Positions 13,383 through 31,649 of a stretch of 64,000 nt of DNA are shown one piece after another; within the stretch, counting starts at the first letter, position 1, and each line of letters begins with the position of its first letter. Both the position numbers and the translations under genes were made by a program. A model generated the notes under the pieces. That model was not told where the DNA came from. It did no database searches and saw only the letters and a list, made by a program, of their open reading frames with translations. The DNA comes from Candidatus Onthovicinus excrementipullorum (GTDB lineage Bacteria > Bacillota > Clostridia > Oscillospirales > Acutalibacteraceae): the NCBI GenBank assembly GCA_018712345.1, contig DVHG01000022.1, positions 41,566 to 105,565 of the forward strand. The letters run 5' to 3'.

Positions 13383-13413
13383 GTACCGCCCCTGCCCTTT
13401 CCGGTTTTTTCTC

Positions 13414-13811: not shown

Positions 13812-13871
13812 TTTAAGTGCCTCCTTTTTTGTTCTGTGGTATCATGATACACCAAAATATCCGTTTTGACT

Positions 13872-13884: not shown

Positions 13885-13888
13885 CCTT

Positions 13889-14560: not shown

Positions 14561-14701
14561 AGGCCGCCTCCTTTCCCCACTATTGTACGCGCAAATGCCG
14601 CAAAAAGCAATCCTGCGCAAGGGGCGGCCATCCTGTATGTGCGGAAAATTCAGGTTTGTCTCACGGAGTCCACCACCTGTTCATCCTCTTAATTTACACC
14701 C

Positions 14702-16298: not shown

Positions 16299-17153
16299 TC
16301 ATACCACCCTGGTCTTCCCCATATTGGTCAGCATTTCTACAGTCGCGGGATCATAATGGGAGAAAAACAGGCTTTTTCCCTCGTCCAACCTGCGGATCGC
16401 TTCCATATCCTGATCGCTTAAAGCAAAGTCAAACACATCCAGATTCTGCTCCATCCGCTCCCTGCGCGTGGACTTTGGAATCACGACCACATCGCTTTGA
16501 ATCAGAAAACGCAGGGCAGTCTGGGCGGCGGATTTTCCATACCGGGCGCCGATTTGAGTCAGCACCGGGTTTTTAAAAAAGTCCTTCCTGCCCTCGGCAA
16601 AGGGGCCCCAAGATTCGTGCTGCACGCCATACTTTTTCATATACTCATGCGCCGTCTCCTGCTGCTGAAACACATGGGTCTCCACCTGATTGACAGCGGG
16701 CGTCACCTCCGCAAACTGGCACAGGTCAATGAGCCTGTCGGGGTAGAAGTTGCTGACACCGATAGCCCGGAGTTTCCCGGCCCTATAGGCCTCCTCCATC
16801 GCCCGATAAGTGCCGTAGTAGTCGCCAAAGGGCTGGTGGATCAGGAGCAGATCAATATAGTCTGTCTGGAGATTTTTCAGAGATTTGTCGATAGAGGCTC
16901 GGGCCTTCTCATACCCGGCGTTGGAGATCCAAACCTTGGTGGTGAGGAACAGCTCTTCCCTTGGGACGCCGCATTTGCGGACAGCATTGCCCACGGCTTG
17001 TTCATTTCCGTAGGATTGAGCGGTATCAATGGCGCGGTAGCCCGTGCCGATTGCATCGAGCACACAGCGCTCACACTCTTCACTGGAGACCTGGTACACA
17101 CCGTAGCCGAGCTTCGGCATTTTCACGCCATTGTTCAGTGTCACATATTCCAT
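16299..17153 (-). CDS. Aldo/keto reductase
   Basis: A 284-residue NADPH-dependent aldo/keto reductase. IDTAQSYGNEQAVG (about 42-55) contains the catalytic Asp and Tyr, KVWISN the lysine, LLLIHQPFGDYYGT the His-containing motif and IPKSTRRERMEQN (about 240-252) the NADPH-phosphate site. First gene after the conserved LysR-type promoter element at 17210-17235. Reduces an aldehyde or ketone of unknown identity. Confidence 0.92.
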   Translation of the reverse strand: MEYVTLNNGVKMPKLGYGVYQVSSEECERCVLDAIGTGYRAIDTAQSYGNEQAVGNAVRKCGVPREELFLTTKVWISNAGYEKARASIDKSLKNLQTDYIDLLLIHQPFGDYYGTYRAMEEAYRAGKLRAIGVSNFYPDRLIDLCQFAEVTPAVNQVETHVFQQQETAHEYMKKYGVQHESWGPFAEGRKDFFKNPVLTQIGARYGKSAAQTALRFLIQSDVVVIPKSTRRERMEQNLDVFDFALSDQDMEAIRRLDEGKSLFFSHYDPATVEMLTNMGKTRVV

Positions 17154-17187: not shown

Positions 17188-17235
17188 ATTGTAACGGTTC
17201 TTTGAGGGTAACAGAAGTCTCAATTCGTTATGCAG
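17188..17235 (-). promoter_or_regulatory. LysR-type promoter, copy 1
   Basis: TACAAT (-10, 17188-17193), 17 bp, TTCTGT (-35, 17211-17216), immediately preceded by a conserved block reading TAACGAATTGAGAC on the minus strand. The whole 17210-17235 element matches the elements at 22110-22135 and 29275-29300 at 19 of 26 positions. An activator bound directly at the -35 box is the natural reading. Confidence 0.75.
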
Positions 17236-17276
17236 CTGTAACCGATGGGTTCACACTGTGCCGGATCTGTGTATAT

Positions 17277-17307
17277 AAAAACAGCGGGCCGCTTTCCCGC
17301 TGTTTTT
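17277..17307 (-). terminator. Terminator of the six-gene reductase operon
   Basis: AACAGCGGG / CCCGCTGTT stem with a seven-base loop and TTTTTATA after it on the minus strand; it ends the unit that begins at 22075. Confidence 0.85.
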
Positions 17308-17309
17308 CA

Positions 17310-18023
17310 TTAAGATTTTGTAATTGTATACCGCAGCCACAGAACGTTCCCGTCAAGCGGTTTCGCCTCTTTAAGCGCAAAGGATACCGGTCCATGCGGT
17401 GGCAGAAAATCAGCCTGTTCAAAGATGGATACGGAGGTGGTATTTCCATCCGCCACCGGGGCGACAATGAGGCTCAACTCATCAATAAGCCCCTCCTGCA
17501 AAAAGGACCAGTTGACCACACCGCCTCCGGCCACCATCAGACGTTCAATGCCAAAACCCACTTGCAGCTTTTGCAGCAGGAGGGCGCAGTCCAGCCGCTC
17601 CCTTCCGGCAAACAGATAGGAGATCCCCCGCTTTTTCAGATAGGCAAGATAGGACGGGGATGCCTCTTCCGTCAGTGCCTCGATAACATGAGCGGCGGGG
17701 CGGCCTTTCTTTTCCAGTGTGCCGGAAGAAAAGCCCAGATTCCCCTTGGGGTCCACGGAGACGATAAAATTCCCCACCGACCTGCCGTCCTGATTGATAT
17801 AATCCTCTTTTGGCGGAAAATCACCAGCTTGAGGCAGCTGCGGGGCCGGACCGTCGGCATAGCCCCCAAGCATCGTGGTCGTACCGTACAAAGTGGCCGG
17901 ACATCCGTAAAAGCCACGCAGCTCACCATAGGCTTTCAGGGCCGGAACAGCCCCCGGCGCGGAGAAAAAATCCCCGTCGATCTTCCCGTCCAGAGAGGTC
18001 AGCATGTGGCAGACGGTAAACAT
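17310..18023 (-). CDS. RibD-C / dihydrofolate reductase-fold protein
   Basis: About 237 residues from MFTVCHMLTSLDGKIDGD. The HMLTSLDGKI opening and LMVAGGGVVNWSFLQEGLIDELSLIVAPV near residues 170-200 are typical of the RibD C-terminal reductase domain, which binds NADPH and reduces a pyrimidine or similar substrate. No deaminase domain is attached and no riboflavin genes are nearby, so a role in riboflavin synthesis is unlikely. GGGGAGG sits seven bases before the ATG, which lies one base after the preceding gene's stop. Confidence 0.85.
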   Translation of the reverse strand: MFTVCHMLTSLDGKIDGDFFSAPGAVPALKAYGELRGFYGCPATLYGTTTMLGGYADGPAPQLPQAGDFPPKEDYINQDGRSVGNFIVSVDPKGNLGFSSGTLEKKGRPAAHVIEALTEEASPSYLAYLKKRGISYLFAGRERLDCALLLQKLQVGFGIERLMVAGGGVVNWSFLQEGLIDELSLIVAPVADGNTTSVSIFEQADFLPPHGPVSFALKEAKPLDGNVLWLRYTITKS

Positions 18024-18024
18024 C

Positions 18025-18351
18025 TTATTCCTCCCCATAGACTTCCTTGGCCATCCGCAGGGCGGCCCAGGCCTTGGGCCATCCGGCGTAGAAGGCGAGC
18101 TGAGTCAGTGCCTCGCTCATCTCAGTACGGGTGACGCCATTTTCCTTTGCCCGCTCAATATGATGAAGAAGCGAACTGTCCAGAATGCCGCTGGCCATTA
18201 AAGCAGAAACCGTGATAAGACTTCTGTCCCGGGGTGAGAGCTTGTCCTCCCGGGACCAGACCTCGCCGAACAGGACATCGTCGTTGAGCTGTGCGAATTT
18301 GGGGGCAAACTGCCCCATGGCATCTCTGCCCGCTGTTACTTTATCCATCAT
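18025..18351 (-). CDS. Carboxymuconolactone decarboxylase-family (AhpD-like) protein
   Basis: A 108-residue all-helical protein of the CMD family. FGEVWSREDKLSPRDRSLITVSALMA (28-53, shown in part) and HIERAKENGVTRTEMSEALTQLAFYAGWP are the family core, with the conserved histidine. The CxxC of peroxidase-type AhpD is absent, so thiol peroxidase activity is not supported. Fifth gene of the reductase operon. Start may be either of two adjacent ATGs. Confidence 0.85.
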   Translation of the reverse strand: MMDKVTAGRDAMGQFAPKFAQLNDDVLFGEVWSREDKLSPRDRSLITVSALMASGILDSSLLHHIERAKENGVTRTEMSEALTQLAFYAGWPKAWAALRMAKEVYGEE

Positions 18352-18374
18352 TCTCTTCCTTTCTTAAAAACATT

Positions 18375-18932
18375 CTATTTCAGACTGCCGCCATCCCGGA
18401 AGGCATTGCCCACCTTTTCACCCAGGACATGGTAGGCGTTGTGGGTGGGCTCAAAGGAAATGGGGCGGAACTTTGCAAAGTCGATGCTGCCGTCCGAATC
18501 TAAAACACGCTCGTCGGCACTGACATTGACAATTTGACCGATGATGTTGCCATCCTCATTTACTTTAAGGAACCTGCACTCTAGTGCCACGGGAAGTTCG
18601 TCAATGAGGGGAGCTTCCACAAACTCGCTTCTGGTCACGTGGAAGCCGGACTTTTCCATTTTTTTCGGTTCACTGTTCGCGGAGACGATCCCCACATAAT
18701 CGGAGGGCACCACGTGGGCGGCATCCGCAAAGCTGACGGTGAAAGCCCCGCTGCGCTTTATGTTCGCAGTAGTCCTGTGGCCGGCGCTCAGGCACAGCAC
18801 CACTTTGTCCGAATCGTACAGGCCGCCCCATGCGGCATTCATGGCATCGGCGGTACCGTCCGCATTGTATGTGCCGATAATCAGCACCGGCAGCGGGTAA
18901 AACCAGGATTTGGTTCCAAAATTTTTGCGCAT
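18375..18932 (-). CDS. Flavin reductase-domain protein (DIM6/NTAB family)
   Basis: About 185 residues of the flavin-reductase-like split beta-barrel. MNAAWGGLYDSDKVVLCLSAGHRTTANI and GAFTVSFADAAHVVPSDYVGIVS (in parts, residues 30-82) are the FMN-binding strands. Such proteins bind FMN and reduce flavin or act as flavoprotein oxidoreductases. The start at 18932 (MRKNFGTKSW) follows AAGGAG by nine bases. Confidence 0.86.
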   Translation of the reverse strand: MRKNFGTKSWFYPLPVLIIGTYNADGTADAMNAAWGGLYDSDKVVLCLSAGHRTTANIKRSGAFTVSFADAAHVVPSDYVGIVSANSEPKKMEKSGFHVTRSEFVEAPLIDELPVALECRFLKVNEDGNIIGQIVNVSADERVLDSDGSIDFAKFRPISFEPTHNAYHVLGEKVGNAFRDGGSLK

Positions 18933-18977
18933 GATATAACACTCCTTCATTTATATCGCTCAGCTTTCCGTTTCCGG

Positions 18978-19013
18978 AAAGGGAGCACAAGGCGCCACGC
19001 CTGTGCTCCCTTT
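18978..19013 (-). terminator. Strong intraoperon hairpin
   Basis: AAGGGAGCACA / TGTGCTCCCTT with an inner GGCG/CGCC extension, between an aldo/keto reductase and the flavin-reductase gene. Only three U follow, so it may stabilise mRNA ends or attenuate rather than fully terminate. Confidence 0.5.
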
Positions 19014-19022
19014 TGCTGAAAT

Positions 19023-19868
19023 TTACTTCTGTTCATCCACGGGGGGCACCATCTCCGCATAGCCTTTCAGCATTTCAGGGGTGCTGATATAGTAGCGTTT
19101 CTTTTGGTCCATTGCGGCAATCCTTGCCATTTCCTCCCCTGTGAGGGAAAAGTCAAACAGATCGAAATTGTCCTTGATATGGGCCGGATTTTTGGAGCCG
19201 GGGATGACAATGTTGCCGTCCTGAATATGCCAGCGCAGGATGATCTGGGCGTTGGATTTGCCATACTTTTCGGCCAGCTCCGTGAACACCGGCTCCTGAA
19301 TGAGCGCTCTGTCGCCATGGCCGAGAGGATACCACGCCTGAATGACAATTCCCTCTTTGTTCAGGAACTGTTTCAGCTCCTTCTCCTGGGAGTAGGGATG
19401 GACCTCCGTTTGCAGCACGGCCGGCTTCACTTCACAGATACCCAGAATCTCCTGAATCTGCTCCACTGTAAAGTTAGACAGGCCGATGGCCCTGACCTTC
19501 CCCTCCCTGTAGGCCTTTTCCATCAGCTTGTACCCGGCGATGTAGTTGCCGGCGGGCTGGTGAATGAGCAGCAGGTCAATATAGTCGGTATCCAGCCGCT
19601 CCAGCGTCTTTTCCACTGCATCCGCCTGCTCGTAAAAGCTGGGCCACAGCTTGGTCTCCAGGAAGATTTCCTCCCGCGGGAGCCCGGACTTCTTCATCGC
19701 GCGGCCCACAGCCTTTTCATTCACGTAGGCATTGGCCGTGTCGATCAGGCGATAGCCGCACTGGAGTGCGCTGAGGACGGAGGCCTCCGCCTCATCCGGG
19801 CTCAGCAGGAAGGTGCCGATCCCCGCCATAGGCATTTTCACGCCATTGTTCAATGTTGCGTATTCCAT
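19023..19868 (-). CDS. Aldo/keto reductase
   Basis: About 281 residues, closely related in layout to the reductase at 16299: MEYATLNNGVKMPMAGIG start, IDTANAYVNEKAVG catalytic Asp/Tyr segment, ETKLW lysine, LLLIHQPAGNY and IPGSKNPAHIKDN cofactor segment. The near-identical starts (MEYVTLNNGVKMPKLG in the other) point to a duplication within the island. Has a possible extra promoter of its own upstream. Confidence 0.92.
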   Translation of the reverse strand: MEYATLNNGVKMPMAGIGTFLLSPDEAEASVLSALQCGYRLIDTANAYVNEKAVGRAMKKSGLPREEIFLETKLWPSFYEQADAVEKTLERLDTDYIDLLLIHQPAGNYIAGYKLMEKAYREGKVRAIGLSNFTVEQIQEILGICEVKPAVLQTEVHPYSQEKELKQFLNKEGIVIQAWYPLGHGDRALIQEPVFTELAEKYGKSNAQIILRWHIQDGNIVIPGSKNPAHIKDNFDLFDFSLTGEEMARIAAMDQKKRYYISTPEMLKGYAEMVPPVDEQK

Positions 19869-19889
19869 ACAAAACATCCTTTCGTTTTT

Positions 19890-19918
19890 ATTTTATCATA
19901 TAGAACATTACGATTCAA
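19890..19918 (-). promoter_or_regulatory. Possible internal promoter
   Basis: TTGAAT (19913-19918), 17 bp, TAAAAT (19890-19895), overlapping the stop of the zinc alcohol dehydrogenase gene and pointing to the aldo/keto reductase at 19868. Confidence 0.5.
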
Positions 19919-20991
19919 TCGTTGTATATAACCGGTTTAATGAGTGAACGGTCATGATTCAGGAAAAGGCCCATTGCCTCCGGGATTTTATCCATCCCAT
20001 GGTAACAATGGGTGATGAGCTTTTCCGGTGACACCCGGCCGCAGGCGACAAGCTGAGCCATACGGGACATCCACAGCCGTCCACCACGGCACCCCACGCC
20101 CTTGATGGTTTTATCCCCATAGCCGAACCCCCACACCGTGGGATTAATTTCAATAGGAGTACTGCTGAAGTACGCACTCATATTCACCAGAGTGCCTCCC
20201 TTTTTTAAAATGGAGAGCCCTTTGCTCAGTTCTCTCTCACTGCCGCCGCACAGGATTATCCCATCTACCGGACCTCCGTTGTCTTTGACGATCTGCCGGA
20301 GATAGTCGTCATCATGGTAATCCACCAGGTGAGTGGCGCCATATTCTCTCGCCACTTCAAAACATTTCTGCCGGGAGCCGATGGCAAACACATTGCCCGC
20401 GCCATGCAGGACCGCGGCCCGAACGGCCATCAGTCCTACCGGACCAATGCCCAAAACCGCCACTGAGGAACCAAATTCCGGACTCAGCTGACGCATGCCC
20501 TCAAATGCGGTACACATCATATCCGGCACCATAACCGCCTGTTCCAGCGTGACTCCTTCAGGGATAGGGGCAAGATTCATGTCCGCGTCCCGGATATAAT
20601 ATTCTTCCACAAAGGAACCTCCCCGATCCGGGAAATCCACACCGGCGTACATATTGTCCTGATGCTGCTTGGCCAAGCCATCCTGAGCCTCAAGACTGCG
20701 CCATACGGGCATGACCGAGCAAACGATAACGCGATCGCCCACCTTAAAATCATGTACATCTGCGCCTACCTTTACAATCTCCCCACACATCTCGTGCCCG
20801 ATTGCCTTGTTCAGCAAATACGGCAAGGAGGCACATCCAGTGGCGCACAAGTGGGCATCGCTGGTACAAGGGGACCAGATCAGTGGCCGGATCAGCGCCC
20901 CGGTCGGACAGAGTTCTTCCGCTACAGGGCAGTGATCGCTGATCGCCATGGTGCTTTTCCCGGTAATAACCACGCCCTTCACATATCTCAT
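19915..20991 (-). CDS. Zinc-dependent alcohol dehydrogenase, secondary-alcohol type
   Basis: About 358 residues of the medium-chain dehydrogenase family. SPCTSDAH (about 38-45) and IGHEMCGEIVKVG carry the catalytic zinc ligands; VAVLGIGPVGLMAVRAAVLHGAG (about 175-197, in part) is the Rossmann turn with GSRQKC after the second strand, the NADP-type pattern of clostridial isopropanol dehydrogenases; DRVIVCSVMPVWRSLE is also shared with that group. Likely interconverts ketones and secondary alcohols. Start MRYVKG at 20991 follows AAAGGGG. Confidence 0.9.
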   Translation of the reverse strand: MRYVKGVVITGKSTMAISDHCPVAEELCPTGALIRPLIWSPCTSDAHLCATGCASLPYLLNKAIGHEMCGEIVKVGADVHDFKVGDRVIVCSVMPVWRSLEAQDGLAKQHQDNMYAGVDFPDRGGSFVEEYYIRDADMNLAPIPEGVTLEQAVMVPDMMCTAFEGMRQLSPEFGSSVAVLGIGPVGLMAVRAAVLHGAGNVFAIGSRQKCFEVAREYGATHLVDYHDDDYLRQIVKDNGGPVDGIILCGGSERELSKGLSILKKGGTLVNMSAYFSSTPIEINPTVWGFGYGDKTIKGVGCRGGRLWMSRMAQLVACGRVSPEKLITHCYHGMDKIPEAMGLFLNHDRSLIKPVIYND

Positions 20992-21064
20992 ATTGAAACA
21001 CCCCTTTCTTATATTGGTCTTTGTTCCTATGGTATTAAAAATCCACAGCATTCTTCTTTGATCT

Positions 21065-22075
21065 TTATTTGTTCAACGGACTGCCGCCGAATACCTCTGA
21101 CATCTGCATGTGATTCAGCGCTTCGTCCAGCACCTCTACTTCCTGTGGAGACAGCATCACATCCGCAGCGCCGGCATTTTCTGCCATCCGGTCCGGCTTG
21201 CGTGTGCCGGGGATGGGTACGATCCAAGGCTTTTTGCACAGCATCCACGCCAGGGAAATCTGCGCCGGGGTAGCATTTTTTTGGGCGGCAAGATGGTGGA
21301 GCAGCTCCAGCAGCTTTTGATTCCGCTCCACCGCTTCGTCCGCAAACTGGGGCATAGCGGCCCGGTAGTCATACCGCCTGTCAAAGTGCTCGCCTTTTCC
21401 GTATTTACCGGTTAAAAAGCCGTTGGCCATGGGAGAAAAGGCAACCAAGCCCACCTTCAACTCTTCCAAAACTGGAAACAGCGGCTCATAGTGGCGTGCC
21501 ATCATGGAATAGCGGTTCTGCACTGCGGTCACCGGACACACGGCATGCGCCCGGCGCAGGTAATCCTCGTTTGCCTCCGAGATGCCCCAATGGGTAATTT
21601 TGCCCTCAAGGATGAGGTCAGCCATGACACCTGCTACTTCTTCGGGAGGGATGTGGGGATCTATTCGGTGTTGAAAATACAGGTCAATATGGTCCGTGCC
21701 CAGACGTTTTAAGGATCCCTCTACCGACTGCCGGATGCTCTCCGGCCGGGAATCCGGAATGAGGGGCAGCGGTATTTTTCCGCTCTCAAAGTCAAACCGT
21801 AGGCCAAATTTGGTGGCGATGACGACCTTATCCCGCACCGGAGCCAGAGCCTCGCCCACCAGCCGTTCATTCATATGCGGATCATCCGGCGTTCCATAGA
21901 CCTCAGCAGTATCAAAAAATGTGTAACCCATCTCCGCCGCCTGCCGCAGCAGACGCACAGCTTCCTTCTCTTCCATGGGTGCGCCATAGGCATGGGAAAA
22001 GCCCATGCAGCCCAATCCTACAGCGGAAACACTCAGATTTTTCCCTAATATCCTTGCAACCATTCGCTCGTTCAT
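21065..22075 (-). CDS. Aldo/keto reductase (YajO/Tas-type)
   Basis: A 336-residue aldo/keto reductase opening RILGKNLSVSAVGLGCMGFSH. FFDTAEVYG holds the catalytic Asp/Tyr, VIATKFG the lysine, YFQHRIDP the His motif, VPIPGTRKPDRMAEN the cofactor site. First gene after promoter element copy 2. The ATG at 22075 is very close to AGGAGG; the ATG four codons later (22063) may be the real start. Confidence 0.92.
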   Translation of the reverse strand: MNERMVARILGKNLSVSAVGLGCMGFSHAYGAPMEEKEAVRLLRQAAEMGYTFFDTAEVYGTPDDPHMNERLVGEALAPVRDKVVIATKFGLRFDFESGKIPLPLIPDSRPESIRQSVEGSLKRLGTDHIDLYFQHRIDPHIPPEEVAGVMADLILEGKITHWGISEANEDYLRRAHAVCPVTAVQNRYSMMARHYEPLFPVLEELKVGLVAFSPMANGFLTGKYGKGEHFDRRYDYRAAMPQFADEAVERNQKLLELLHHLAAQKNATPAQISLAWMLCKKPWIVPIPGTRKPDRMAENAGAADVMLSPQEVEVLDEALNHMQMSEVFGGSPLNK

Positions 22076-22087
22076 CTCCTCCTGCTT

Positions 22088-22135
22088 ATTATAAATCCTA
22101 TCCCTGCAAAACAGAAGTTTCCGTTTGTTACGCAG
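22088..22135 (-). promoter_or_regulatory. LysR-type promoter, copy 2
   Basis: TATAAT (22088-22093), 17 bp, TTCTGT (22111-22116), preceded by the conserved block (TAACAAACGGAAAC on the minus strand). Element 22110-22135 is the most divergent of the three but keeps CTGC..TAAC.AA and ACTTCTGTT. Confidence 0.72.
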
Positions 22136-22149
22136 TGTTAACTTAAAGG

Positions 22150-23511
22150 TTATGGCTTCTCTTTATCGTCTGCCCTTAGCCCCTTAAAAGTGTGTGCGTA
22201 CATTCCAAGGGAGACAGGCAGCATGATGATCTCCACCACCAGCTGCGTCCAGATCATACCATACAGCCCAAAAACCACATTCATCAGCAGGAGCAGCGGA
22301 ATGTTGAGGACACCCTGGCGGCTGAAGGTGAGGATGGAGGATTGTACTCCCTTACCCATGGCCTGCAGGGTGTAGCTGATAAGGAAATTCACCGAGGTCA
22401 GCGGTACGGCCAGACAGGCGATGCGCAGGAATGATGCGCCCAAGGTGCTGGTCTGCTCCTCCGGGATAAACAAATGCAGGATCTGAGGTGCAAAAACGGC
22501 AAAGCCAACCACAAAGCAGGCAGACATCACAATTGCCGCCTTCCAGGAAAACACGGAAACACGGCGCATCCGCTGATAGTTTTTAGATGCAAAATTATAT
22601 CCCACCAAAGGCATAAAGCCCTGACAGAGCCCCATGGAGACGTTCAGCGGGAACTGGTCAATCCGCTTGACAATACCATAAGCCGCTACCGGGATATCTC
22701 CGTAGCCGGAAGCCAGACGGACCATCACCATATTGGAGGCGTTGCCCAAAGCGGTGGCCAGTGCAGAGGCCAGCCCCACTGAAAAAACAGGGCCGATAAA
22801 ACGAAACGTAAAATATCTGGGATGGAGTGAAACTGCCGTTTTCCCGCTCAGACGCAAATACCGGATGAAGAAAAACACCACCGAAGCGGCATTGGAAAAA
22901 GCTGTGGCAATGGCGGCCCCCTCAACATCCATATGAGCTCCGAAAATCAGCACAGGATCCAGCACAACATTTAAAATACCGCCGAACATCATCCCAGCAC
23001 TGGCCTGTTTGGCATGGCCCTCACTGCGCAAAAGATGTCCGAGTGTCAGGCTTAGCATGGTAGGCACACCGCCAAGCACGACTACCCAGACAAGATAGCT
23101 TTCCGCATAGCGGTAAGTATCCGGACTGGCCCCCAGAAAATTTAAAAGCGGTGCGCGGGCAAAGTACGTTGCCAGAGAAAACAGCAGGGTTACTGTGGCA
23201 CCGCCCCACACACTGAAGGCTGCCACACGCTTAATATCTTTATGGTTCTGCTCCCCCAGCATCCGGGAAATCAGACTGCTGCCGCCCAGCCCGAACAGAT
23301 TACCCAAAGCGGTAAGCAAATTGAACCATGGCGATACCAGAGAGACCGCCGCCACCATGGCAGGGTCCCCAATTTGACCGATAAAGAAGGTGTCGGCCAG
23401 ATTGTAGATCATAGTCACTACCTGACTGATAATGGTGGGGACTGCCAGCTTTGCCACCGCTTTTGGCACAGGCATAGATTCGAATAAATATCTTTCAGAT
23501 TTTTCCTCCAT
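22150..23511 (-). CDS. MATE-family multidrug/Na+ efflux transporter
   Basis: A polytopic membrane antiporter of about 453 residues with some 12 hydrophobic segments. ALTPTIISQVVTMIYNLADTFFIGQIGDPAMVAAVS-like N-terminal segment (quoted loosely from residues about 20-55) and the matching VGYNFASKNYQRMRR half-repeat are MATE hallmarks. It is the last gene of the 29.2-kb operon, so it may export the substrate or product handled by the reductases. Start at 23511 (MEEKSERYLFE, after AGAAGGAAA) is preferred; an ATG at 23550 is possible. Confidence 0.88.
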   Translation of the reverse strand: MEEKSERYLFESMPVPKAVAKLAVPTIISQVVTMIYNLADTFFIGQIGDPAMVAAVSLVSPWFNLLTALGNLFGLGGSSLISRMLGEQNHKDIKRVAAFSVWGGATVTLLFSLATYFARAPLLNFLGASPDTYRYAESYLVWVVVLGGVPTMLSLTLGHLLRSEGHAKQASAGMMFGGILNVVLDPVLIFGAHMDVEGAAIATAFSNAASVVFFFIRYLRLSGKTAVSLHPRYFTFRFIGPVFSVGLASALATALGNASNMVMVRLASGYGDIPVAAYGIVKRIDQFPLNVSMGLCQGFMPLVGYNFASKNYQRMRRVSVFSWKAAIVMSACFVVGFAVFAPQILHLFIPEEQTSTLGASFLRIACLAVPLTSVNFLISYTLQAMGKGVQSSILTFSRQGVLNIPLLLLMNVVFGLYGMIWTQLVVEIIMLPVSLGMYAHTFKGLRADDKEKP

Positions 23512-23553
23512 TGTCTGTAAATTTCCTTCTTTCTCAAACAACCGGAACATAAT

Positions 23554-23582
23554 CAGGCCCTTCCCGAAAACTTCCGGAAGGG
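23554..23582 (-). terminator. Intraoperon hairpin before the MATE gene
   Basis: GGCCCTTCC / GGAAGGGCC inverted repeat around GAAAACTT-type loop. No U-run follows on the minus strand, so it is more likely an mRNA-stabilising or attenuating structure. Confidence 0.4.
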
Positions 23583-23601
23583 CCATCACATTTTAGTTTT
23601 T

Positions 23602-24132
23602 CTAAATCGATTGTCCGGCCCGGAACGCCTCTTTTATAGCCTTTGTTCCCGTTACTTCACCCTTTTGATAGACGCCGGGCCCATAAATCACGTGCCGCAC
23701 CTTAGCCCCCGGCAGACAGTCGGTAAAACCGTACAGACCATCCGTTGTGCGTTTCATTGCCCGTGCCCCGGCAGCGGCCGTGGCAATAAAGATGAATTCC
23801 TTATTTTTAATTTCGGTATACCGGGGCAATGTACGGTCAATCATGGTTTTCATCTGACCATCCATGGAGTAGAAATAGACCGGTGTTGCCAAAACGATCA
23901 CATCCGCAGCAATCATTTTTTCAAGCAGGGTGTCCATGTCATCCTTCTGCACGCATCTCCCTGTTCCACGGCACCCATAGCAGGCACGGCAGGAGCCAAT
24001 TTTCAGATCCTGCACATAAATTTTTTCCGCATTATTGCCGGATTCACGAGCGCCGCGGATCAATGCATCGCACAGCAGATCGGAATTCCCGCCCTTACGG
24101 GGGCTTCCGGCTAAAACTAAAACCTTTTTCAT
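23602..24132 (-). CDS. Flavodoxin-fold NAD(P)H:FMN oxidoreductase
   Basis: About 176 residues: LAGSPRKGGNSDLLCDAL (residues 7-24) is the FMN phosphate loop; KIGSCRACYGCRGTGRCVQKDD (about 48-69, in part) is a Cys cluster of the iron-sulfur-flavoprotein type; ATPVYFYSMDGQMKTMIDRTLP binds flavin. Likely a quinone or aromatic reductase or small electron carrier. Start at 24132 fits the family N-terminus exactly; longer readings run into the next gene. Confidence 0.88.
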   Translation of the reverse strand: MKKVLVLAGSPRKGGNSDLLCDALIRGARESGNNAEKIYVQDLKIGSCRACYGCRGTGRCVQKDDMDTLLEKMIAADVIVLATPVYFYSMDGQMKTMIDRTLPRYTEIKNKEFIFIATAAAGARAMKRTTDGLYGFTDCLPGAKVRHVIYGPGVYQKGEVTGTKAIKEAFRAGQSI

Positions 24133-24145
24133 CTTATACGCCTCT

Positions 24146-24910
24146 TTACAACTGATGATTGGCTGCGATGATATCCTCAAGCGAAACGTGCTCATTGCGG
24201 AAGCGGGCCTCCGGGTTCCGCTCCGAGGGAGTGAGCCCGATTGCCTTGGACGGGCAATGGTGTACACAGGCCAGGCAGAAATCGCAGGAATTTTGGGTAC
24301 GGGTGGCTTTTCCATTTTCGAGCACGTAAAGCCCACGCGGGCAAACCCTGGTACAGACGCCGCAGGCCACACACCGATCAGTTATGGCAATCGCACTGCC
24401 GTTGATGCGCTCCGGATGTTGTGCGAACATGTGCTGTACCGTTTTATAGAGCATCTTGCTCCGCAGGCCGGCCTTGGGAATGTGTCGGGCTCTGTTTTGA
24501 ACAGCGCTTTTCACGGTGTCAATTTCATGCTCAATCTGATGCTCCTTTGCGGACTGCTCGTTCATGTCAAAGGCCGGGAGATAGTTGTCCACCATCCGGA
24601 TAGTGTGCACATAGTCCACGTGAACCCCGCACTGTGCCGCAAAATCGGCACTCCACCGGGCGGCCACAGTATCATCGTTGCCATAGGTCAATACCATGTA
24701 GAAGTAGTCCGTCTGAAACGTGGATTTTTCCAAGAATTCCCGTACGATTTTCGGCAGTTCACCCGCATAGACGGGGGCAACGATCCCGATCGATTCATCG
24801 GAAAATTTTAGTTCCCGCCCCTTTAAGGCCTGCGGGATGCTAATTGGATTCTCCGTTAACAGGCGTGCCACATACAGGCTGTTGCCCGTGGCTGTAAAAT
24901 AAAAGATCAC
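24146..24910 (-). CDS. EFR1-family flavodoxin-ferredoxin
   Basis: A 254-residue fusion of an N-terminal flavodoxin domain (MIFYFTATGNSLYVARLL, VAPVYAGELPKIVREFL) and a C-terminal 2x[4Fe-4S] ferredoxin with CVACGVCTRVCP and CDFCLACVHHCP at about 180-225. It should pass electrons between ferredoxin-type donors and flavoproteins. The ATG overlaps the stop of the fused esterase gene by four bases, tying their expression together. Confidence 0.9.
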   Translation of the reverse strand: MIFYFTATGNSLYVARLLTENPISIPQALKGRELKFSDESIGIVAPVYAGELPKIVREFLEKSTFQTDYFYMVLTYGNDDTVAARWSADFAAQCGVHVDYVHTIRMVDNYLPAFDMNEQSAKEHQIEHEIDTVKSAVQNRARHIPKAGLRSKMLYKTVQHMFAQHPERINGSAIAITDRCVACGVCTRVCPRGLYVLENGKATRTQNSCDFCLACVHHCPSKAIGLTPSERNPEARFRNEHVSLEDIIAANHQL

Positions 24911-26283
24911 GATGTGCTTTCGCCTCCCGAAAAAATATTAGTGAGAAACCGATCGTAGTCCGGAATCCACCCGCCGCGTGCACCAAAGCCGTGGGGCATC
25001 CCATCCAGCTGCAAACGCTCCACAGATACTCCGGCTGCCTCCGCTGCGTCGGCATTGGCAAGGAACTGGTTATAGAACGGGTCCCGCGTGCCGTAGCAGT
25101 AAAAGGTGGGCGGCAGGTTTCCGGAGCGCAGGAGATCCACATCGGTTGTTCCCACACTCAGCCGGCCATAGAAGGAGTAGATCATCCCGCAGGCCGCCGC
25201 ATCTGCGGAAAGGCGATCCAGCGCATCCGGTCGGTAGTCCGGGTCCAGTGCCGTGCCGTTGATCCGGCCATCAAAATTCAGCAGCATCTCGCCGCTCAAT
25301 ATCCCGCCGGCGGAAAAGCCCATCACGGCGATATCGTCCGCATCAATGCCATATTCTCCGGCGTGCGCGCGGACAAACCGCACCGCCCGTGCCAGATCCA
25401 GCGCGCCCTCCTGCTGCGTATAGGGGCGCAGTCGGTAGTCCACTACAAAGCTCTGGTACCCGAGCACACTCAACGCCTCTGCCACATCTACCCCCTCCGG
25501 CTGGTCACTGCGGAACTGGAACGCCCCGCCTGGGCAGATGAGCACGGCCCCTTTGACCGGTGTACCTTCCGGAACCGGAAAGCTTGTGAGATAGGGCCGA
25601 AAATCCGGGTCATCAGAATATCCGCCATTATTGACGGTGTATTCCGTAGTGGCGGGCGCGTTGCCCTCCTCCCACAGGTACAGCACCTGCTGTTTGCCCG
25701 GTGTCACGGTGGCGGTGGCCACCGTATTGCCGTTCCCGCTCTCCGGGACAAAGGCTCCGTCCGAAAGACCAAGCCCCTGCGCCCACTGCTCAATTTCCTG
25801 TTGTGTAGTGTCCGCGGAGAAAAGCAGGGCGCTGTCCCCCATCAGTGCGCCGGGCTGGAGCTGGGAAATGGCGGAGAAGATAACATTGGAATCATTGCCC
25901 TCTCCCAATACAAAGGGGTAAATGGTCCGCGCACCAAAATCATTGTTTTTCAGAAAAGTCTGTACCTTCTCCGGCAGAGCACCGCCCACTGAAGCGAAGC
26001 CCAGCAGCACAAACTCGTAATCGCTCGCCTCCAGAACGGCATTCTGTGTGATGTCTACAAGAGATCCACCCAACACATTTTTCAGAACGGCAGCAGTCTG
26101 CGCCACGGCATCACCGTCCTGTGCAGAGGCGTAGGCGATCAGGATATTGGATTGCTGCATGGCGCTGTCCTCCTTATTCTGAAGCGTATCATCCGTTTGC
26201 GAGAGGAGATCCTGGGTATTCCCGCATGCGGCCAGCCCCACCGACAATGCGAAGGCCAGAACCACTGCAAGAATTCTTTTCAT
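24907..26283 (-). CDS. Lipoprotein with flavodoxin-like domain fused to alpha/beta hydrolase
   Basis: About 458 residues. A lipoprotein signal (LSVGLAACGNTQ, Cys near residue 20) leads to a flavodoxin-fold region (about 45-185: ILIAYASAQDGDAVAQTA, DYEFVLLGFASVGG), then a BD-FAE-type esterase domain (about 210-450: VLICPGGAFQFRSD oxyanion loop, MGFSAGGILSGEM nucleophile elbow, MPHGFG catalytic histidine). The flavodoxin part lacks the usual T-x-T/S-G-N-T phosphate loop, so FMN binding is doubtful. Extracellular anchoring of a flavodoxin-esterase fusion is unusual. Start MKRILA follows GGGAGG. Confidence 0.8.
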   Translation of the reverse strand: MKRILAVVLAFALSVGLAACGNTQDLLSQTDDTLQNKEDSAMQQSNILIAYASAQDGDAVAQTAAVLKNVLGGSLVDITQNAVLEASDYEFVLLGFASVGGALPEKVQTFLKNNDFGARTIYPFVLGEGNDSNVIFSAISQLQPGALMGDSALLFSADTTQQEIEQWAQGLGLSDGAFVPESGNGNTVATATVTPGKQQVLYLWEEGNAPATTEYTVNNGGYSDDPDFRPYLTSFPVPEGTPVKGAVLICPGGAFQFRSDQPEGVDVAEALSVLGYQSFVVDYRLRPYTQQEGALDLARAVRFVRAHAGEYGIDADDIAVMGFSAGGILSGEMLLNFDGRINGTALDPDYRPDALDRLSADAAACGMIYSFYGRLSVGTTDVDLLRSGNLPPTFYCYGTRDPFYNQFLANADAAEAAGVSVERLQLDGMPHGFGARGGWIPDYDRFLTNIFSGGESTS

Positions 26284-26310
26284 AAGAAGCGCCTCCCTCA
26301 CCACTGTCTC

Positions 26311-26970
26311 TTACAGGTTCAACCCTTCGATCCAGGTTCGAACATCTTCCTCTGTCACCCCGGAAGAGAAGCGCTCGCCCTCCAGCCAGTTGCCGGTGCC
26401 CGCCATCTCCGCCAGCAGCTCGCCGCTCTGACCAAGACCTGAGCTTGCAGAGGTGCAGAACGGAATCACCGTTTTCCCGGTAAAGTCATTGGCTTCCACA
26501 AAGCCATCCACCGGCCAGGCCGCGATCCCCCACCAGATGGGATATCCAATAAATACGGTATCATAGGAATCCCAGTTATCTACCGTATCAGCAGTGAGTG
26601 CCACATCCCGCTCATCGGGGTTCTCGTGCTCGCGCACTACCCTGCTGCCCTCATCGGTCCAGTTCAGGTCCGCATCCGTGTAGGGGTCGGCAGGCACCAG
26701 CTCAAACAGGTCTCCGCCGGTTGCTTTGGCAATGTAATTGGCGGCCTCCTCTGTGTTCCCGGTTGCCGAGTAATAGACGACGAGTGTTTTCCCCGTTCCC
26801 TCTTCTGGAGTTCCCTGTGCGCCGGGGACGGAAGACTCTCCGGTAGCGGCCGCCGAACCCGCAGGCGCGGATGACGCCGGATCGGAAGTGCCGGAGGGAT
26901 TGGAATCACTGCACGCCGCAAGGCTGAACACAAGAGCGATTCCCAGGAATAATGCGGTTAGTTTTTTCAT
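26311..26970 (-). CDS. Flavodoxin lipoprotein
   Basis: About 219 residues: lipobox SLAACSDSN, a Ser/Ala/Gly-rich linker, then a flavodoxin domain starting LVVYYSATGNTEEAANYIAK, with YDTVFIGYPIWWGIAAWPV as the flavin-stacking loop and FCTSASSGLGQS. These are intact FMN-binding motifs. A membrane-anchored extracellular flavodoxin implies electron transfer or quinone reduction at the outer face. Start at 26970 follows AAAGGAG. Confidence 0.9.
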   Translation of the reverse strand: MKKLTALFLGIALVFSLAACSDSNPSGTSDPASSAPAGSAAATGESSVPGAQGTPEEGTGKTLVVYYSATGNTEEAANYIAKATGGDLFELVPADPYTDADLNWTDEGSRVVREHENPDERDVALTADTVDNWDSYDTVFIGYPIWWGIAAWPVDGFVEANDFTGKTVIPFCTSASSGLGQSGELLAEMAGTGNWLEGERFSSGVTEEDVRTWIEGLNL

Positions 26971-26984
26971 TTTGACTGCTCCTT

Positions 26985-28154
26985 TCATTCAAAACACTCA
27001 TGAAAAATCTGCAAGATTTCCTCATGAGTCATTTTCCTGTAGCTTCCGGCTGAAATCCCGCAGGAATCTGCGATTTCCTTCAGCACGGTCTGATCGGTCA
27101 TCCCCAGTTCCCGCAGCGTGGTGGGCAGGCCGATCTCTTTGATGAAAGACGCCAGCGCTTCAACACCGGCCAGGGCAAGCGCCTCATCACTTCTCCCGTC
27201 CCGGGAAATTCCCCAGACATTCTCGGCAAAGCGAATAAATTTGGGCAGGCCGTCCCGATAGATGTGGCGGTAGTACACCGGATGCAGCACCGCCAGGCCG
27301 CAGCCATGATTGCAGTTGGTATAGGCCCCCAGCTGGTGCTCCATGTTGTGGCACTCAAAGTCGCACTTTTTGCCCATCTTGATCACGCGATTCTCCGCCA
27401 TGGTGGCATCCCACATCAGGTTGCTGCGGGCAGTATAGTCCTCTGGGTTCCGGATAGCGGCGCGCAGGTTGCGAATGACACTCCTCATCAGGGCCTCCAT
27501 GATGTCATCGGAGACGTTGTCCTCATTGGGCTCGCTGAAATAGGTCTCCATAATATGGCTGAGAATGTCAAATCCGCCGGATATCATCTGCTTTACCGGT
27601 ACGCTGTAGGTATAAGTTGGATCCAGCAGGGCAAATTGGGGATTCAGCCTGGGGTAATCCCTGCCGGTTTTCACCTTCTTTTCCTCATTGGTGATAACCG
27701 CACCGCCGTTGCATTCACTGCCGGTCCCTGCCACCGTGACAATGACGCCCAGCGGCAGTGGCTCAAAGTCGATGACGCCGGGATGTGCCCAGAAGTCCTC
27801 CCAGATATCGCCCGCATACCGTGCGGCCAGAGACACCGCCTTACAGCAGTCCATCACCGATCCGCCGCCGATGCCGAGTATCATTTCCACATGGTTTTCA
27901 CGGGCCAGCTTTGCGCCCTCCTGTACTTTGGCATAGGTGGGGTTGGCCATAATGCCCGAAAACTCCACAATATTTTTACCGGCCGCTTTTAAAATCCCGG
28001 TGACCTCATCATAAACACCGTTGCGTTTGATGGAACCACCGCCATAGGCCAGCATTACCGTGGCGTAGGGTTTCACCTTGCAGCTGAGGTATTCTTTCAC
28101 ACAGCCCTTGCCAAAATACACTTTTGTGGCGTTTTCAAAAATAAAGTTGTTCAT
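26985..28154 (-). CDS. Iron-containing alcohol dehydrogenase (BdhA/YqhD type)
   Basis: A 389-residue group III dehydrogenase. GGGSIKRNGVYDEV and LGIGGGSVMDCCKAV bind NAD(P); metal ligands are expected in WDATMAENRVIKMG and the CHNMEHQLGAYTNCNHGCGLAVL segment. Related YqhD/BDH enzymes use NADPH to reduce aldehydes, which fits the rest of the island. Follows the esterase gene by 40 bp in the operon from promoter copy 3. Confidence 0.93.
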   Translation of the reverse strand: MNNFIFENATKVYFGKGCVKEYLSCKVKPYATVMLAYGGGSIKRNGVYDEVTGILKAAGKNIVEFSGIMANPTYAKVQEGAKLARENHVEMILGIGGGSVMDCCKAVSLAARYAGDIWEDFWAHPGVIDFEPLPLGVIVTVAGTGSECNGGAVITNEEKKVKTGRDYPRLNPQFALLDPTYTYSVPVKQMISGGFDILSHIMETYFSEPNEDNVSDDIMEALMRSVIRNLRAAIRNPEDYTARSNLMWDATMAENRVIKMGKKCDFECHNMEHQLGAYTNCNHGCGLAVLHPVYYRHIYRDGLPKFIRFAENVWGISRDGRSDEALALAGVEALASFIKEIGLPTTLRELGMTDQTVLKEIADSCGISAGSYRKMTHEEILQIFHECFE

Positions 28155-28194
28155 GTAAAAGGCTTCCTTTCCTGATAATCTGATTTAGGTTTAG

Positions 28195-29223
28195 CTACAT
28201 CTGCGCTTCCCAAAAGGACACCGCTTCATTGATCCATCCCTCGGCAGCAGTTCCGGTCCCCAGCCCAAAGCCGTGGCTCAGTCCTGGATAGTGGTGAAAT
28301 TCCGTGGGAATTTCCATGGCGTCCAGCGCCTCAAGGCGGCGCTGCATGGTGCGCCAGTTGGCGATCCAATCGTTTTCTCCCACGCAGGCAAAGGTTGGCG
28401 GATCGTTTACTGTATAATCCGAATGTCCGGTGTACTGCATGATGACGGCTCCCGGTCGGGGCAGGTCATCCCCGCCAAAGACTGCCGGGCCGTAAGAGCC
28501 CAGCCACGCCGCCATCCGTCCGCCCGCGGATCCACCCCAGAGAGAATAGCAGTCCGTATCCACTTCAAGCTCCTGCGCATGTTCAAAAATAAAACTGATG
28601 GCCCGGGCCAAATCTTCACAGGCCGTCTGCGCGCCGGGACGGTAAATTAGGGCAAAGGCGTTATAGCCCAGCTTTGACAGTTCCAGGGCGTGGGGAAAGC
28701 TGTCCTGCATGGCCCCCACATAGGCGAACCCACCGCCCGCATTGCACACGGCGAATTTTTCACCGGGAGTCCCCTTGAAGAAAAACAAGCCGGTGTCCTC
28801 TTTCTCCGGGTCCGCTGCCTTTTCTTCCTCCGTATAGATATCGTAAAACACTGTATCCCCCGCCGCGGCGTGCTCTTTCAGGTAATTGACGATTTCCACC
28901 GTCTTATTCGGGTCAATATTATTGTACCAGGTGAGCTGGAGATCTCCCAATGTATCCCCGCTGTAATAACCGCTGTCTACCGGAAAAATCAGCCTGCCCC
29001 ACGCCCCAAAGGCGGAGTCACTGATGACCTCTGAAATTTTTGTATCCGCCGTATAGGGATCACTGCTATCTGTCTGCACGGAATCTGCTCCTCCTATTTC
29101 CTGCCGCGTGGTTTCCACCCTTTCCGTATTTGCGGCGCCGCTGGTTCCCACGGCCGTTCTGCAGCCGGTAAAACAAAGCACCAGCAAGCAGAGAAGCACA
29201 GCGAGAGAAACCACCCTACTCAT
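28195..29223 (-). CDS. Secreted alpha/beta hydrolase lipoprotein (BD-FAE-like)
   Basis: A 342-residue lipoprotein (LVLCFTGCRTAV, Cys near 21) with a linker to about residue 60 and an esterase domain: NAGGGFAYVG oxyanion loop, LWGGSAGGRMAAWLGSYG nucleophile elbow and GLSHGFG catalytic histidine. Similar in plan to the esterase half of the gene at 24907. First gene after promoter copy 3. Confidence 0.82.
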   Translation of the reverse strand: MSRVVSLAVLLCLLVLCFTGCRTAVGTSGAANTERVETTRQEIGGADSVQTDSSDPYTADTKISEVISDSAFGAWGRLIFPVDSGYYSGDTLGDLQLTWYNNIDPNKTVEIVNYLKEHAAAGDTVFYDIYTEEEKAADPEKEDTGLFFFKGTPGEKFAVCNAGGGFAYVGAMQDSFPHALELSKLGYNAFALIYRPGAQTACEDLARAISFIFEHAQELEVDTDCYSLWGGSAGGRMAAWLGSYGPAVFGGDDLPRPGAVIMQYTGHSDYTVNDPPTFACVGENDWIANWRTMQRRLEALDAMEIPTEFHHYPGLSHGFGLGTGTAAEGWINEAVSFWEAQM

Positions 29224-29252
29224 ATGACTTCACCGCCCTTCTTTCTGTCTTT

Positions 29253-29300
29253 ATTATAAAAAAATCGAGACCTCAACAGAAGTCTCGATTCGTTATGTGG
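29253..29300 (-). promoter_or_regulatory. LysR-type promoter, copy 3
   Basis: TATAAT (29253-29258), 17 bp, TTCTGT (29276-29281), preceded by the conserved block TAACGAATCGAGAC (minus strand); full element 29275-29300. It lies directly downstream of the LysR gene and drives the esterase-to-MATE operon. Confidence 0.75.
29259..29293 (-). terminator. LysR gene terminator superimposed on promoter copy 3
   Basis: AATCGAGAC / GTCTCGATT inverted repeat with a 10-base loop followed by seven U on the minus strand. The left arm of the stem is the conserved regulatory block and the U-run merges with the spacer before TATAAT. Confidence 0.7.
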
Positions 29301-29334
29301 TATATACCAAAAGGTTTATAGTCAATAGCGCAGA

Positions 29335-30237
29335 TCACGATGCTGTTACCTTTTCCACCGCATTCAAAAACTGCCGGACGACCGACGATGGAGTTGGGGC
29401 GTGGAGCAACCCAAACGGAATGGTATAGTTCCACTCCACCGGCATGATTTTCAGCAGGGGATGCACATACCGCCAGTTTTCAATCGCCATCAGCACACAG
29501 CCCCGGTTCTCGCACTGGTTGAACGCCTCCACATCGTAAAAATCAAAGTCCACAATGTGGATCTGAGGGTGGTTCTTCCACAGATCATCCCGGAGCAGGT
29601 CCACATAGTGGCTCCAATCCCGGCGCATGAGCATCAGATTCTCCCCGTACAGGTCCTGTACCGTCAGGCGGTCCTTCTGTGCCAGCCGGTGGTGGACGGA
29701 AACCGCACAGCAAATAGGTTCCCGTGAAATTTCCAGCCCCGCGCATCTGCGCAGGTTCAGCATCGTCTCATCAAAAATTCCGGCGACCACATCAATGTTC
29801 CGGCCAAGGTTCCCCAAGATCTCCCGGGCATTTTCAGGGGTGTTGTCAAACGGGATAAGCTGGAATTTGACATTGGGACAGTATTCCTGCACCTTGGGCC
29901 ACAGATCCACCAATACCTGAGCCGGCGTCATGGGGGAGGTGCCAATACGGATCAGGCTCTCACTCTCCTGCATGGCGTTTCTGGCCCGCGTCACGGAGTC
30001 CTTGCAGTATTGAATGATATATTTTGCGTCCTGATACAGTGACTGCCCCGCCTTAGTCAACGACAGCCCCCGGTGGGTACGGACAAAAAGCTGTAAATTC
30101 AGGCTCTCCTCCAACAGGTTGATCTGCTTGATAACAGCAGGCGGAGAAATATACAGATTTTCAGCAGCTTTATTAAAGCTCCCCGACTCTGCCACGCAGA
30201 GAAAGGTTTCCAACTGGGGATTATACACAGCAATCAC
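29335..30237 (-). CDS. LysR-family regulator, probable activator of the redox island
   Basis: A 300-residue LysR regulator with an N-terminal winged helix-turn-helix (TFLCVAESGSFNKAAENLYISPPAVIKQINLLEESL, region 9-44, shown in part) and a periplasmic-binding-like effector domain. Start codon is GTG. Its position at the head of a long run of reductase genes with three shared promoter elements suggests that it binds those elements. Effector unknown; an aldehyde, quinone or other electrophile is plausible. Confidence 0.88.
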   Translation of the reverse strand: MIAVYNPQLETFLCVAESGSFNKAAENLYISPPAVIKQINLLEESLNLQLFVRTHRGLSLTKAGQSLYQDAKYIIQYCKDSVTRARNAMQESESLIRIGTSPMTPAQVLVDLWPKVQEYCPNVKFQLIPFDNTPENAREILGNLGRNIDVVAGIFDETMLNLRRCAGLEISREPICCAVSVHHRLAQKDRLTVQDLYGENLMLMRRDWSHYVDLLRDDLWKNHPQIHIVDFDFYDVEAFNQCENRGCVLMAIENWRYVHPLLKIMPVEWNYTIPFGLLHAPTPSSVVRQFLNAVEKVTAS

Positions 30238-31605: not shown

Positions 31606-31649
31606 AGCTCCCGTGCCCGTTTCGGGCTGTGGGGGCTCTTTTTGTTTTT
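31606..31649 (+). terminator. Terminator after the hydrolase gene
   Basis: GCCCG-TTT-CGGGC core with extended imperfect AGCTCCC/GGGGGCT arms, followed by CTTTTTGTTTTT. Confidence 0.7.

Follow-up and report, generated by a model that had tools for sequence, protein, structure and literature searches.

How are 16 genes for reductases, hydrolases and an exporter, laid out as three operons, brought under common control, and what part is played by the LysR-type regulator gene beside them? The question is raised by a 64,000-nucleotide (nt) stretch of DNA from Candidatus Onthovicinus excrementipullorum (contig DVHG01000022.1, positions 41,566 to 105,565), here called the window, to which all coordinates refer. 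The answer that we consider probable is that one conserved operator occurs at the three promoters and is likely the site at which the LysR protein encoded at 29335-30237 binds and activates, and that the operator copy adjoining lysR is also the predicted terminator of this gene. One short stretch of DNA beside lysR would then be operator, promoter and terminator at once. LysR regulons are already of a known kind; the predicted fusion of terminator, operator and promoter is the surprising and new part. The elements concerned are the following, where fused sites carry the hairpin described below and plain sites do not.

29335-30237, minus strand: lysR, LysR-type regulator of 300 amino acids, predicted activator of the island (Pfam HTH_1 7.5e-22, LysR_substrate 7.8e-12)
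29258-29291, minus strand: predicted intrinsic terminator of lysR inside operator 3 (13 pairs, -18.9 kcal/mol, z score -6.06)
29253-29320, minus strand: operator/promoter 3, fused type (AACC-TTTT-GGT dyad, ACCACATAACGAAT, GAGACTTCTG over the -35 box, TATAAT at 29258-29253; matrix score 60.9)
22088-22155, minus strand: operator/promoter 2, plain type (matrix score 50.6; z score -1.48, no strong hairpin)
17188-17255, minus strand: operator/promoter 1, plain type (dyad AACC-CATC-GGTT; matrix score 44.2; z score -1.08, no strong hairpin)

Three promoters with one operator

Reading of the minus strand gives a 26-base pair (bp) element at each promoter, CTGCATAACGAATTGAGACTTCTGTT at 17210-17235, CTGCGTAACAAACGGAAACTTCTGTT at 22110-22135 and CCACATAACGAATCGAGACTTCTGTT at 29275-29300, with the same base in all three at 19 of the 26 positions. 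These elements had been reported in a first-pass annotation, which took TTCTGT as the -35 box and regarded the element as fused to it. Both statements hold at three of three sites: exactly 17 bp past TTCTGT lie the -10 boxes TACAAT (17193-17188), TATAAT (22093-22088) and TATAAT (29258-29253). The annotation overlooked a dyad further upstream as well as a second fusion, that of site 3 with the predicted lysR terminator, which is more unusual than the fusion with the -35 box. All three sites are located within one 12-kb stretch, and the upstream half of operator 2 (AACC-TTTA-AGTT) overlaps the stop codon of the MATE exporter gene (22152-22150).

In the genome of origin (2,451,417 bases) the pattern TTCTGT-N17-TAYAAT is matched three times, exactly at the three window sites, and its reversed control is not matched at all. 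The 21-bp core TAACRAAYNGRRACTTCTGTT, searched with up to three mismatches, is likewise found at the window sites alone, each time without a mismatch; its reversed control gave three matches at this loose level.

The operator is longer than the 26-bp element. Alignment of sites from many genomes yields a consensus that begins with an AACC-N4-GGT dyad centered near -65 (counted back from the -10 box) and continues with ACTGCATAACRAAT and then GAGACTTCTG lying over a poor -35 box. Written more fully, it consists of the dyad, ACTGCA, TAACNAATNGAGACTTCTG with TTCTGN as the -35 box, 17 bp and TATAAT. A spacing of 17 bp is found at 63 of the 71 fused sites and at 53 of the 56 plain ones, identical sequences having been merged in these distinct-site counts. 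Unlike its length, the sequence of the spacer is not conserved at plain sites.

Co-occurrence of motif and regulator

Loci were picked solely for a relative of the LysR protein (71-90% identity), and the best 80 of 175 were retained. Their hosts are Lachnospiraceae, Oscillospiraceae, other Clostridia and Scardovia wiggsiae, the named ones being nearly all Clostridia. A motif derived from the three window sites alone matched 78 times in 59 of these 80 loci (reversed control, one match). A 44-bp matrix of 51 bits, built on 73 of the window-motif sites, located 110 sites in 72 loci and none in reversed/complemented sequence, training and test sharing the same loci. Within 500 bp downstream of 98 of the 110 sites, and on the same strand, lies a homologue of an island gene (tblastn, E<=1e-15); six of the 12 exceptions are less than 400 bp from a contig end.

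Among 391 genomes of the class, the extended motif is present in nine, the LysR (E<=1e-90) in 14 and both in eight, compared with about 0.3 expected if they were independent. The sole genome with the motif only has a single match with three mismatches. Three of the co-occurrence genomes are apparent sources of loci used to derive the pattern (G101, G153, G441), and four are new to it (G129, G195, G302, G365; LysR 59-66% identical). In the family, the LysR was found in seven of 120 genomes.

The first-pass annotation had proposed a regulon under a single activator and had suggested a motif search of this genome and its relatives, naming absence of the motif where the LysR gene and the operons are kept as the outcome that would speak against it. 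The search returned the three sites of the own genome and the co-occurrence in eight of 391 class genomes, and the check came out in favor of the proposal, with a matrix site in 72 of 80 loci. The motif thus tracks the LysR and mostly precedes island-gene homologues, and on this comparative evidence the regulon is well supported, the LysR being its predicted activator. The operator provides a ready marker for the prediction of targets of this LysR subfamily in gut Clostridia and Scardovia.

Two loci deserve separate mention. Genome G365 (loci L087 and L088) contains two lysR copies (64-66% identity) and several operator sites, five by pattern over about 35 kb and six by matrix, none of which is of the fused type. 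The actinobacterium Scardovia wiggsiae (L081) has island genes, an operator of the fused type and a LysR 72% identical to that of the window, a combination suggestive of transfer between phyla.

The LysR protein

The N-terminal winged helix-turn-helix and C-terminal substrate domain of the LysR family were both recognized by Pfam, by an AlphaFold model (mean predicted local distance difference test score, pLDDT, 88; predicted template modeling score, pTM, 0.71) and by fold comparison, the nearest solved folds being those of CbnR, CcmR, OxyR and BenM. The subfamily comprises 5762 protein clusters at E<=1e-80; few of the best 120 listed clusters are named, and all of these generically, as 'LysR family transcriptional regulator'. 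Cysteines 165 and 242 are present in 91 of 91 aligned relatives (54-90% identity), C120 in 88 and C177 in 84, and cysteines 78, 120, 165, 176, 177 and 242 each occur in at least 73 of the 80 close relatives. It is possible that the protein is a thiol sensor. Disulfide sensing of the OxyR kind is kept only as a hint, because the NCBIfam OxyR models give 57.3 and 60.3 bits with this protein, far below their cut-offs of 329 and 500.

A predicted terminator inside the operator

On the sense strand of lysR, site 3 is predicted to fold into a stable hairpin followed by a U-run, as expected of an intrinsic terminator. Positions 29291-29279 pair with 29274-29262 in 13 consecutive pairs (G-U included) around a loop of four nt (29278-29275), and seven T occupy 29264-29258, the last of them being the first base of the -10 box. 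At least ten of the 13 pairs are formed at 64 of 70 lysR-adjacent sites (the 64 representing 62 distinct sequences and including L100, a copy of L009) versus ten of 61 sites elsewhere, the remaining 51 having three to nine pairs. The seven nt preceding the -10 box contain on average 5.94 T at fused and 1.93 at plain sites.

Covariation is seen in the stem. In an alignment of 69 fused sites (the distinct ones among 73), 94.9% of the cells are paired and nine of the 13 pairs are changed on both sides. Double changes in the stem number 32, against 7.2 (standard deviation 2.0) in shuffles, with none of 500 shuffles as high; these figures are not probabilities, because the alignment rows are related. 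Shifting the stem alignment by one column lowers the pairing to 50-61%. A clear change is seen at stem columns 33/56, where UA (37 rows) is replaced by AU (16 rows), with UG in six.

No more than 20 nt separate the lysR stop codon from the dyad in 56 of the 61 fused copies (median over the 61, 11 nt), and in 11 fused copies the dyad overlaps the 3' end of lysR or its stop codon. There is therefore hardly room for another terminator, and none was found before the operator in the 52 fused lysR-adjacent copies that the script could anchor. Loci L088 and L089 have an unfused operator together with a separate terminator. Our best reading is that the lysR terminator is built onto the operator of its own product. 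A search of Rfam returned no family at gathering score between 10000 and 36000 of the window.

A covariance-model search of the 391 class genomes (stricter filters apply above 40 genomes) detected the fused element in seven, five of them with the LysR. One match, in G259, is marginal (E 0.007), and no island gene was found in its 3-kb locus. In G482 (L110), next to only two short lysR pieces (63 and 89 residues), lie the fused element and the gene of a reductase similar to DkgA (80% identity). A quick tree of the regulators groups L087-L098 (10 rows, Shimodaira-Hasegawa-like approximate likelihood ratio test 99) with no fused row among them, and places L099 on a very long branch, yet fused. 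Any stop symbols within translated lysR matches were removed for this tree and written X in the cysteine alignment; L100 and L102, copies of L009 and L016, were excluded from both and from the distinct-site counts.

The conserved operator half GAGACTTC is part of the 5' arm of the predicted 13-pair hairpin at site 3, and the T-run ends at the -10 box; if this reading is right, the polymerase finishing lysR would therefore terminate inside the promoter of the next operon. Termination at this place would insulate the downstream operon from lysR read-through. In so compact a design, termination of the regulator and initiation of its target would share the same bases, and the mutual influence of termination, operator occupancy and initiation could be tested directly.

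A further step, which we judge rather unlikely, would be feedback from the 3' end: LysR bound to operator 3 would block the polymerase finishing lysR before the terminator hairpin is made, the messenger lacking its protective 3' stem would be degraded, and LysR would limit its own level. The basis for this idea is the rarity of 5' operators. An operator is found less than 400 bp upstream of the lysR start in one copy out of 93 (L036, divergent), four copies having less than 400 bp of upstream sequence, so that self-regulation at the 5' end through this motif is not the rule. Were the idea true, feedback via a terminator made of the gene's own operator would take the place of the self-repression that divergent LysR genes usually exert at their 5' end.

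Genes of the three operons and their proposed role

The genes behind the three promoters are:

28195-29223, minus strand: lipoprotein alpha/beta-hydrolase, esterase-like (Pfam BD-FAE/Abhydrolase_3; lipobox by eye)
26985-28154, minus strand: iron-containing alcohol dehydrogenase, YqhD/butanol-dehydrogenase-like (best NCBIfam model PRK15138, which we take to be that of YqhD, 253.9 bits, cut-off 645; PDB 1vlj and, both named YqhD, 4qgs and 1oj7)
26311-26988, minus strand: lipoprotein flavodoxin (Flavodoxin_4 5.7e-41; PDB 4ici, 4j8p; lipobox by eye)
24907-26304, minus strand: lipoprotein with partial flavodoxin-like domain and alpha/beta hydrolase (Abhydrolase_3 3.8e-15; Flavodoxin_4 1.5e-4, below cut-off; lipobox by eye)
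24146-24910, minus strand: EFR1-family ferredoxin with flavodoxin-like N-terminus (NCBIfam NF038196 179 bits, cut-off 75)
23602-24132, minus strand: NADPH-dependent FMN reductase-like protein (FMN_red 1.7e-24)
22150-23589, minus strand: MATE exporter (MatE 2e-49)
21065-22075, minus strand: aldo/keto reductase, first gene of operon 2 (Aldo_ket_red 1e-73)
19915-21051, minus strand: zinc alcohol dehydrogenase (ADH_zinc_N, ADH_N)
19023-19877, minus strand: aldo/keto reductase, DkgA/YvgN-like (best NCBIfam model DkgA, 239.7 bits, cut-off 425; PDB YvgN, DkgA)
18375-18950, minus strand: flavin reductase-like protein
18025-18351, minus strand: carboxymuconolactone decarboxylase family protein (CMD 3.3e-22)
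17310-18038, minus strand: RibD C-terminal domain protein
16299-17153, minus strand: aldo/keto reductase, first gene of operon 3
15351-16238, minus strand: lipoprotein alpha/beta-hydrolase, Peptidase_S9-like (lipobox by eye)
14702-15337, minus strand: FMN reductase-like protein, last gene of operon 3 (FMN_red 2.6e-25)

The three operons and their 16 genes are as the first-pass annotation described them, except that the EFR1-type ferredoxin-flavodoxin (24146-24910) of the first operon had not been listed. Its placement of part of the system at the outer membrane face is not supported: the named hosts of the related loci are nearly all Clostridia, which are mostly monoderm, and the lipoproteins would therefore be located at the cytoplasmic membrane, on its outer face. 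Nothing was found that points to quinones, which it had named as a possible substrate. Reduction of a carbonyl compound, also proposed there, is supported by homology alone, through the relatives of YqhD and DkgA. As to export, another of its suggestions, a MATE gene was found in 12 of the 58 loci that have at least 5 kb of sequence behind lysR.

The content of these 58 loci was counted by tblastn (E<=1e-15), longest-open-reading-frame calling being crude and not used. The lipoprotein hydrolase occurs in 29 and the flavin reductase in 19 loci. The fused and plain sites also differ in what they precede: the lipoprotein hydrolase follows 38 and the iron dehydrogenase 16 of 70 fused sites, and the first aldo/keto reductase follows 22 of 40 plain sites.

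According to excerpts of two papers (PMC5297802, PMC8262776), the yqhD and dkgA genes of Escherichia coli have YqhC as their activator and are induced by glyoxal and furfural. With this precedent, the YqhD-like and DkgA-like enzymes lead us to propose, with moderate confidence, reactive carbonyls as the class of both inducer and substrate. The enzyme set suggests detoxification of reactive carbonyls by a LysR analogue of the E. coli yqhC-yqhD-dkgA system. In the mechanism that we favor, LysR would sit on the AACC-N4-GGT dyad near -65 and reach over TAACRAATNGAGACTTCTG to the weak -35 box (TTCTGN). In the presence of the inducer, a reactive carbonyl or related electrophile, it would place RNA polymerase on the near-consensus -10 box exactly 17 bp away. 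The 16 gene products, among them the YqhD-like and zinc alcohol dehydrogenases, three aldo/keto reductases, flavin/flavodoxin-type reductases, lipoprotein hydrolases and the MATE exporter, would then hydrolyse, reduce and export the inducing compound.

Alternative explanations

That the regulon is catabolic and not protective is a possibility to which we give less than even chances: it would work on a compound freed by the lipoprotein hydrolases, be it a dietary ester, a flavonoid, a quinone or a derivative of a sugar. In a simple aldehyde stress operon, lipoprotein hydrolases and flavodoxins would be unusual, as would a carboxymuconolactone decarboxylase family protein, and the named hosts are mostly gut bacteria. 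The commonest partners in the 58 loci are nevertheless all reductive, namely the YqhD-like iron dehydrogenase (41 loci), the lipoprotein flavodoxin (38) and aldo/keto reductases (31 and 26, with 13 for the third), and no complete catabolic route is seen among the 16 genes.

The hairpin could also be a second DNA dyad, either an extra LysR half-site or a cruciform, that happens to precede a T-rich spacer and terminates nothing; this we regard as improbable. Its left arm is indeed operator, GAGACTTC being conserved at plain sites too, and it would account for the ten fused sites away from lysR and for the A-C mismatches at one stem position. The operator can nevertheless do without the paired right arm, which is missing from 56 distinct plain operators, and stem position 40/49 is T-G in 37 and T-A in 32 of the 69 rows and nothing else, as suits RNA. 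Further points against a mere DNA dyad are the T-run that accompanies the hairpin and the near lack of space for any other terminator in fused copies, with none found in the 52 tested. Moreover, the GAGACTTC/GGGACTTC hairpin is kept behind lysR in four of the 24 loci in which no operator lies near this gene (L021, L048, L052, L064), with no TATAAT or TACAAT within about 190 nt and with a T-run in three of the four; the shuffle rate of this scoring is 1.25% per locus. Since many operators lack the hairpin and a few loci have the hairpin without the operator, the two are separable both ways. L098, scored as a fifth relic hairpin, was dropped (six of eight letters, overlapping its own operator region).

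It is very improbable that the motif belongs to another regulator and that this LysR merely travels with the island. Two other candidates, a second LysR (31648) and a Crp-like protein (13889), are encoded near the island in the window. Loci chosen by the present LysR alone nevertheless carry the motif, the two co-occur genome-wide, and the dyad follows the lysR stop codon at the median distance of 11 nt given above; in the 80 loci, by contrast, the second LysR is the best label of an open reading frame six times (24-38% identity) and the Crp-like protein never. That the three promoters are recent duplicates of a single one, with no need for a shared regulator, would fit their position within 12 kb and is largely excluded, with a negligible chance of being right, because the conservation of operator positions, -10 box and 17-bp spacing comes with differing spacers and recurs in distant genomes including Scardovia (L081).

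The reading that we favor, of one operator activated by LysR and doubling as the lysR terminator, has to be set against a number of discordant observations. Eight of the 80 loci have no matrix site. The extended pattern is missing from six of the 14 class genomes with the LysR (54-61% identical), one of which, G432, carries the fused element in the covariance-model search. The right half of the dyad, GGT, is present at 44 of 71 fused and 36 of 56 plain distinct sites. A strict T-N11-A in the expected register is found at 49 of 71 fused and seven of 56 plain sites (56 of 127 overall), and, by reading, at none of the three window sites. As to the hairpin, ten fused sites do not adjoin lysR, five of the 64 that do have fewer than five T before the -10 box (one of the five, L038, is doubtful, having a low score and no -10 box), and no accepted relic is seen in 20 of the 24 lysR loci that lack an operator close by. 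At stem column 38/51 no pair is formed in 17 of the 69 rows, mostly as A-C (15 of 67 in a parallel count in which identical sequences were merged and L100 and L102 excluded), and the RNA stem would therefore be weaker there. The terminator script overlooked a terminator of L094 that is visible by eye. With regard to function, two proteins encoded in the window operons, the zinc dehydrogenase and the EFR1 ferredoxin, were found in none of the 58 loci at the tblastn thresholds used, and the substrate assignment is loose because the YqhD and DkgA scores are well below their equivalog cut-offs.

Neighboring genes

Beside the island, the minus strand of 10172-14620 encodes a pyridine nucleotide-disulphide oxidoreductase-rhodanese fusion (10172-11875), a GH18-like protein (11949-13415), a thioredoxin (13503-13811) and the Crp-like regulator (13889-14620), a cluster that may be concerned with thiol/persulfide stress. 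Beyond the island follow the second LysR gene (31648-32538, minus strand), a MarR-type regulator gene (32696-33151, plus strand), an ABC exporter gene (33148-34914) and, by reading, a further ABC-like open reading frame (34911-36806). A protein of 1297 amino acids with six SpaA prealbumin-like stretches (52007-55900, minus strand) is probably a surface protein. No Pfam match at 1e-8 was obtained for two open reading frames, at 57285-57989 and at 59420-61573.

Comparison with known systems

No description of the regulon was found in the literature, and among reports of terminator/promoter overlap none dealt with a LysR operator as judged by title and start of abstract, many subscription papers lying outside the search. 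Canonical LysR regulators (CbnR, BenM, OxyR) share with the window protein the HTH_1 and LysR_substrate domains and the fold. The predicted layout is also like theirs: classical LysR activators contact the DNA near -65 and again as far as the -35 box, and here a dyad near -65, conserved in part, and the downstream part of the operator would take these places. Many LysR genes are divergent from their target and repress themselves via a 5' operator, whereas here the operator is 3' of lysR.

The E. coli yqhC-yqhD-dkgA system resembles the present one in having one adjacent activator (here a predicted one), core genes for a dehydrogenase and an aldo/keto reductase, which in the window are YqhD-like and DkgA-like with scores below the equivalog cut-offs, and a likely role in carbonyl detoxification. 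The two differ in the regulator, YqhC being of the AraC/XylS type and the window protein of the LysR type, and in the arrangement, yqhC being divergent from its target and lysR in tandem with it. The window also has three operons with lipoprotein hydrolases, flavodoxins and a MATE exporter, and the system occurs in Clostridia, that of E. coli in Gram-negatives. The nemRA-gloA system differs in that its regulator, of the TetR type, is a repressor of another family. As described in an excerpt of PMC5297802, it is an electrophile regulator with conserved cysteines, and the window LysR resembles it in having conserved cysteines, C165 and C242, of putative role, which all 91 aligned relatives keep.

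Ordinary intrinsic terminators between tandem operons likewise consist of a stem, a four-nt loop and a T-run. Unlike them, the predicted terminator of lysR has the predicted operator of an activator as its 5' arm, and its T-run touches the -10 box of the next promoter.

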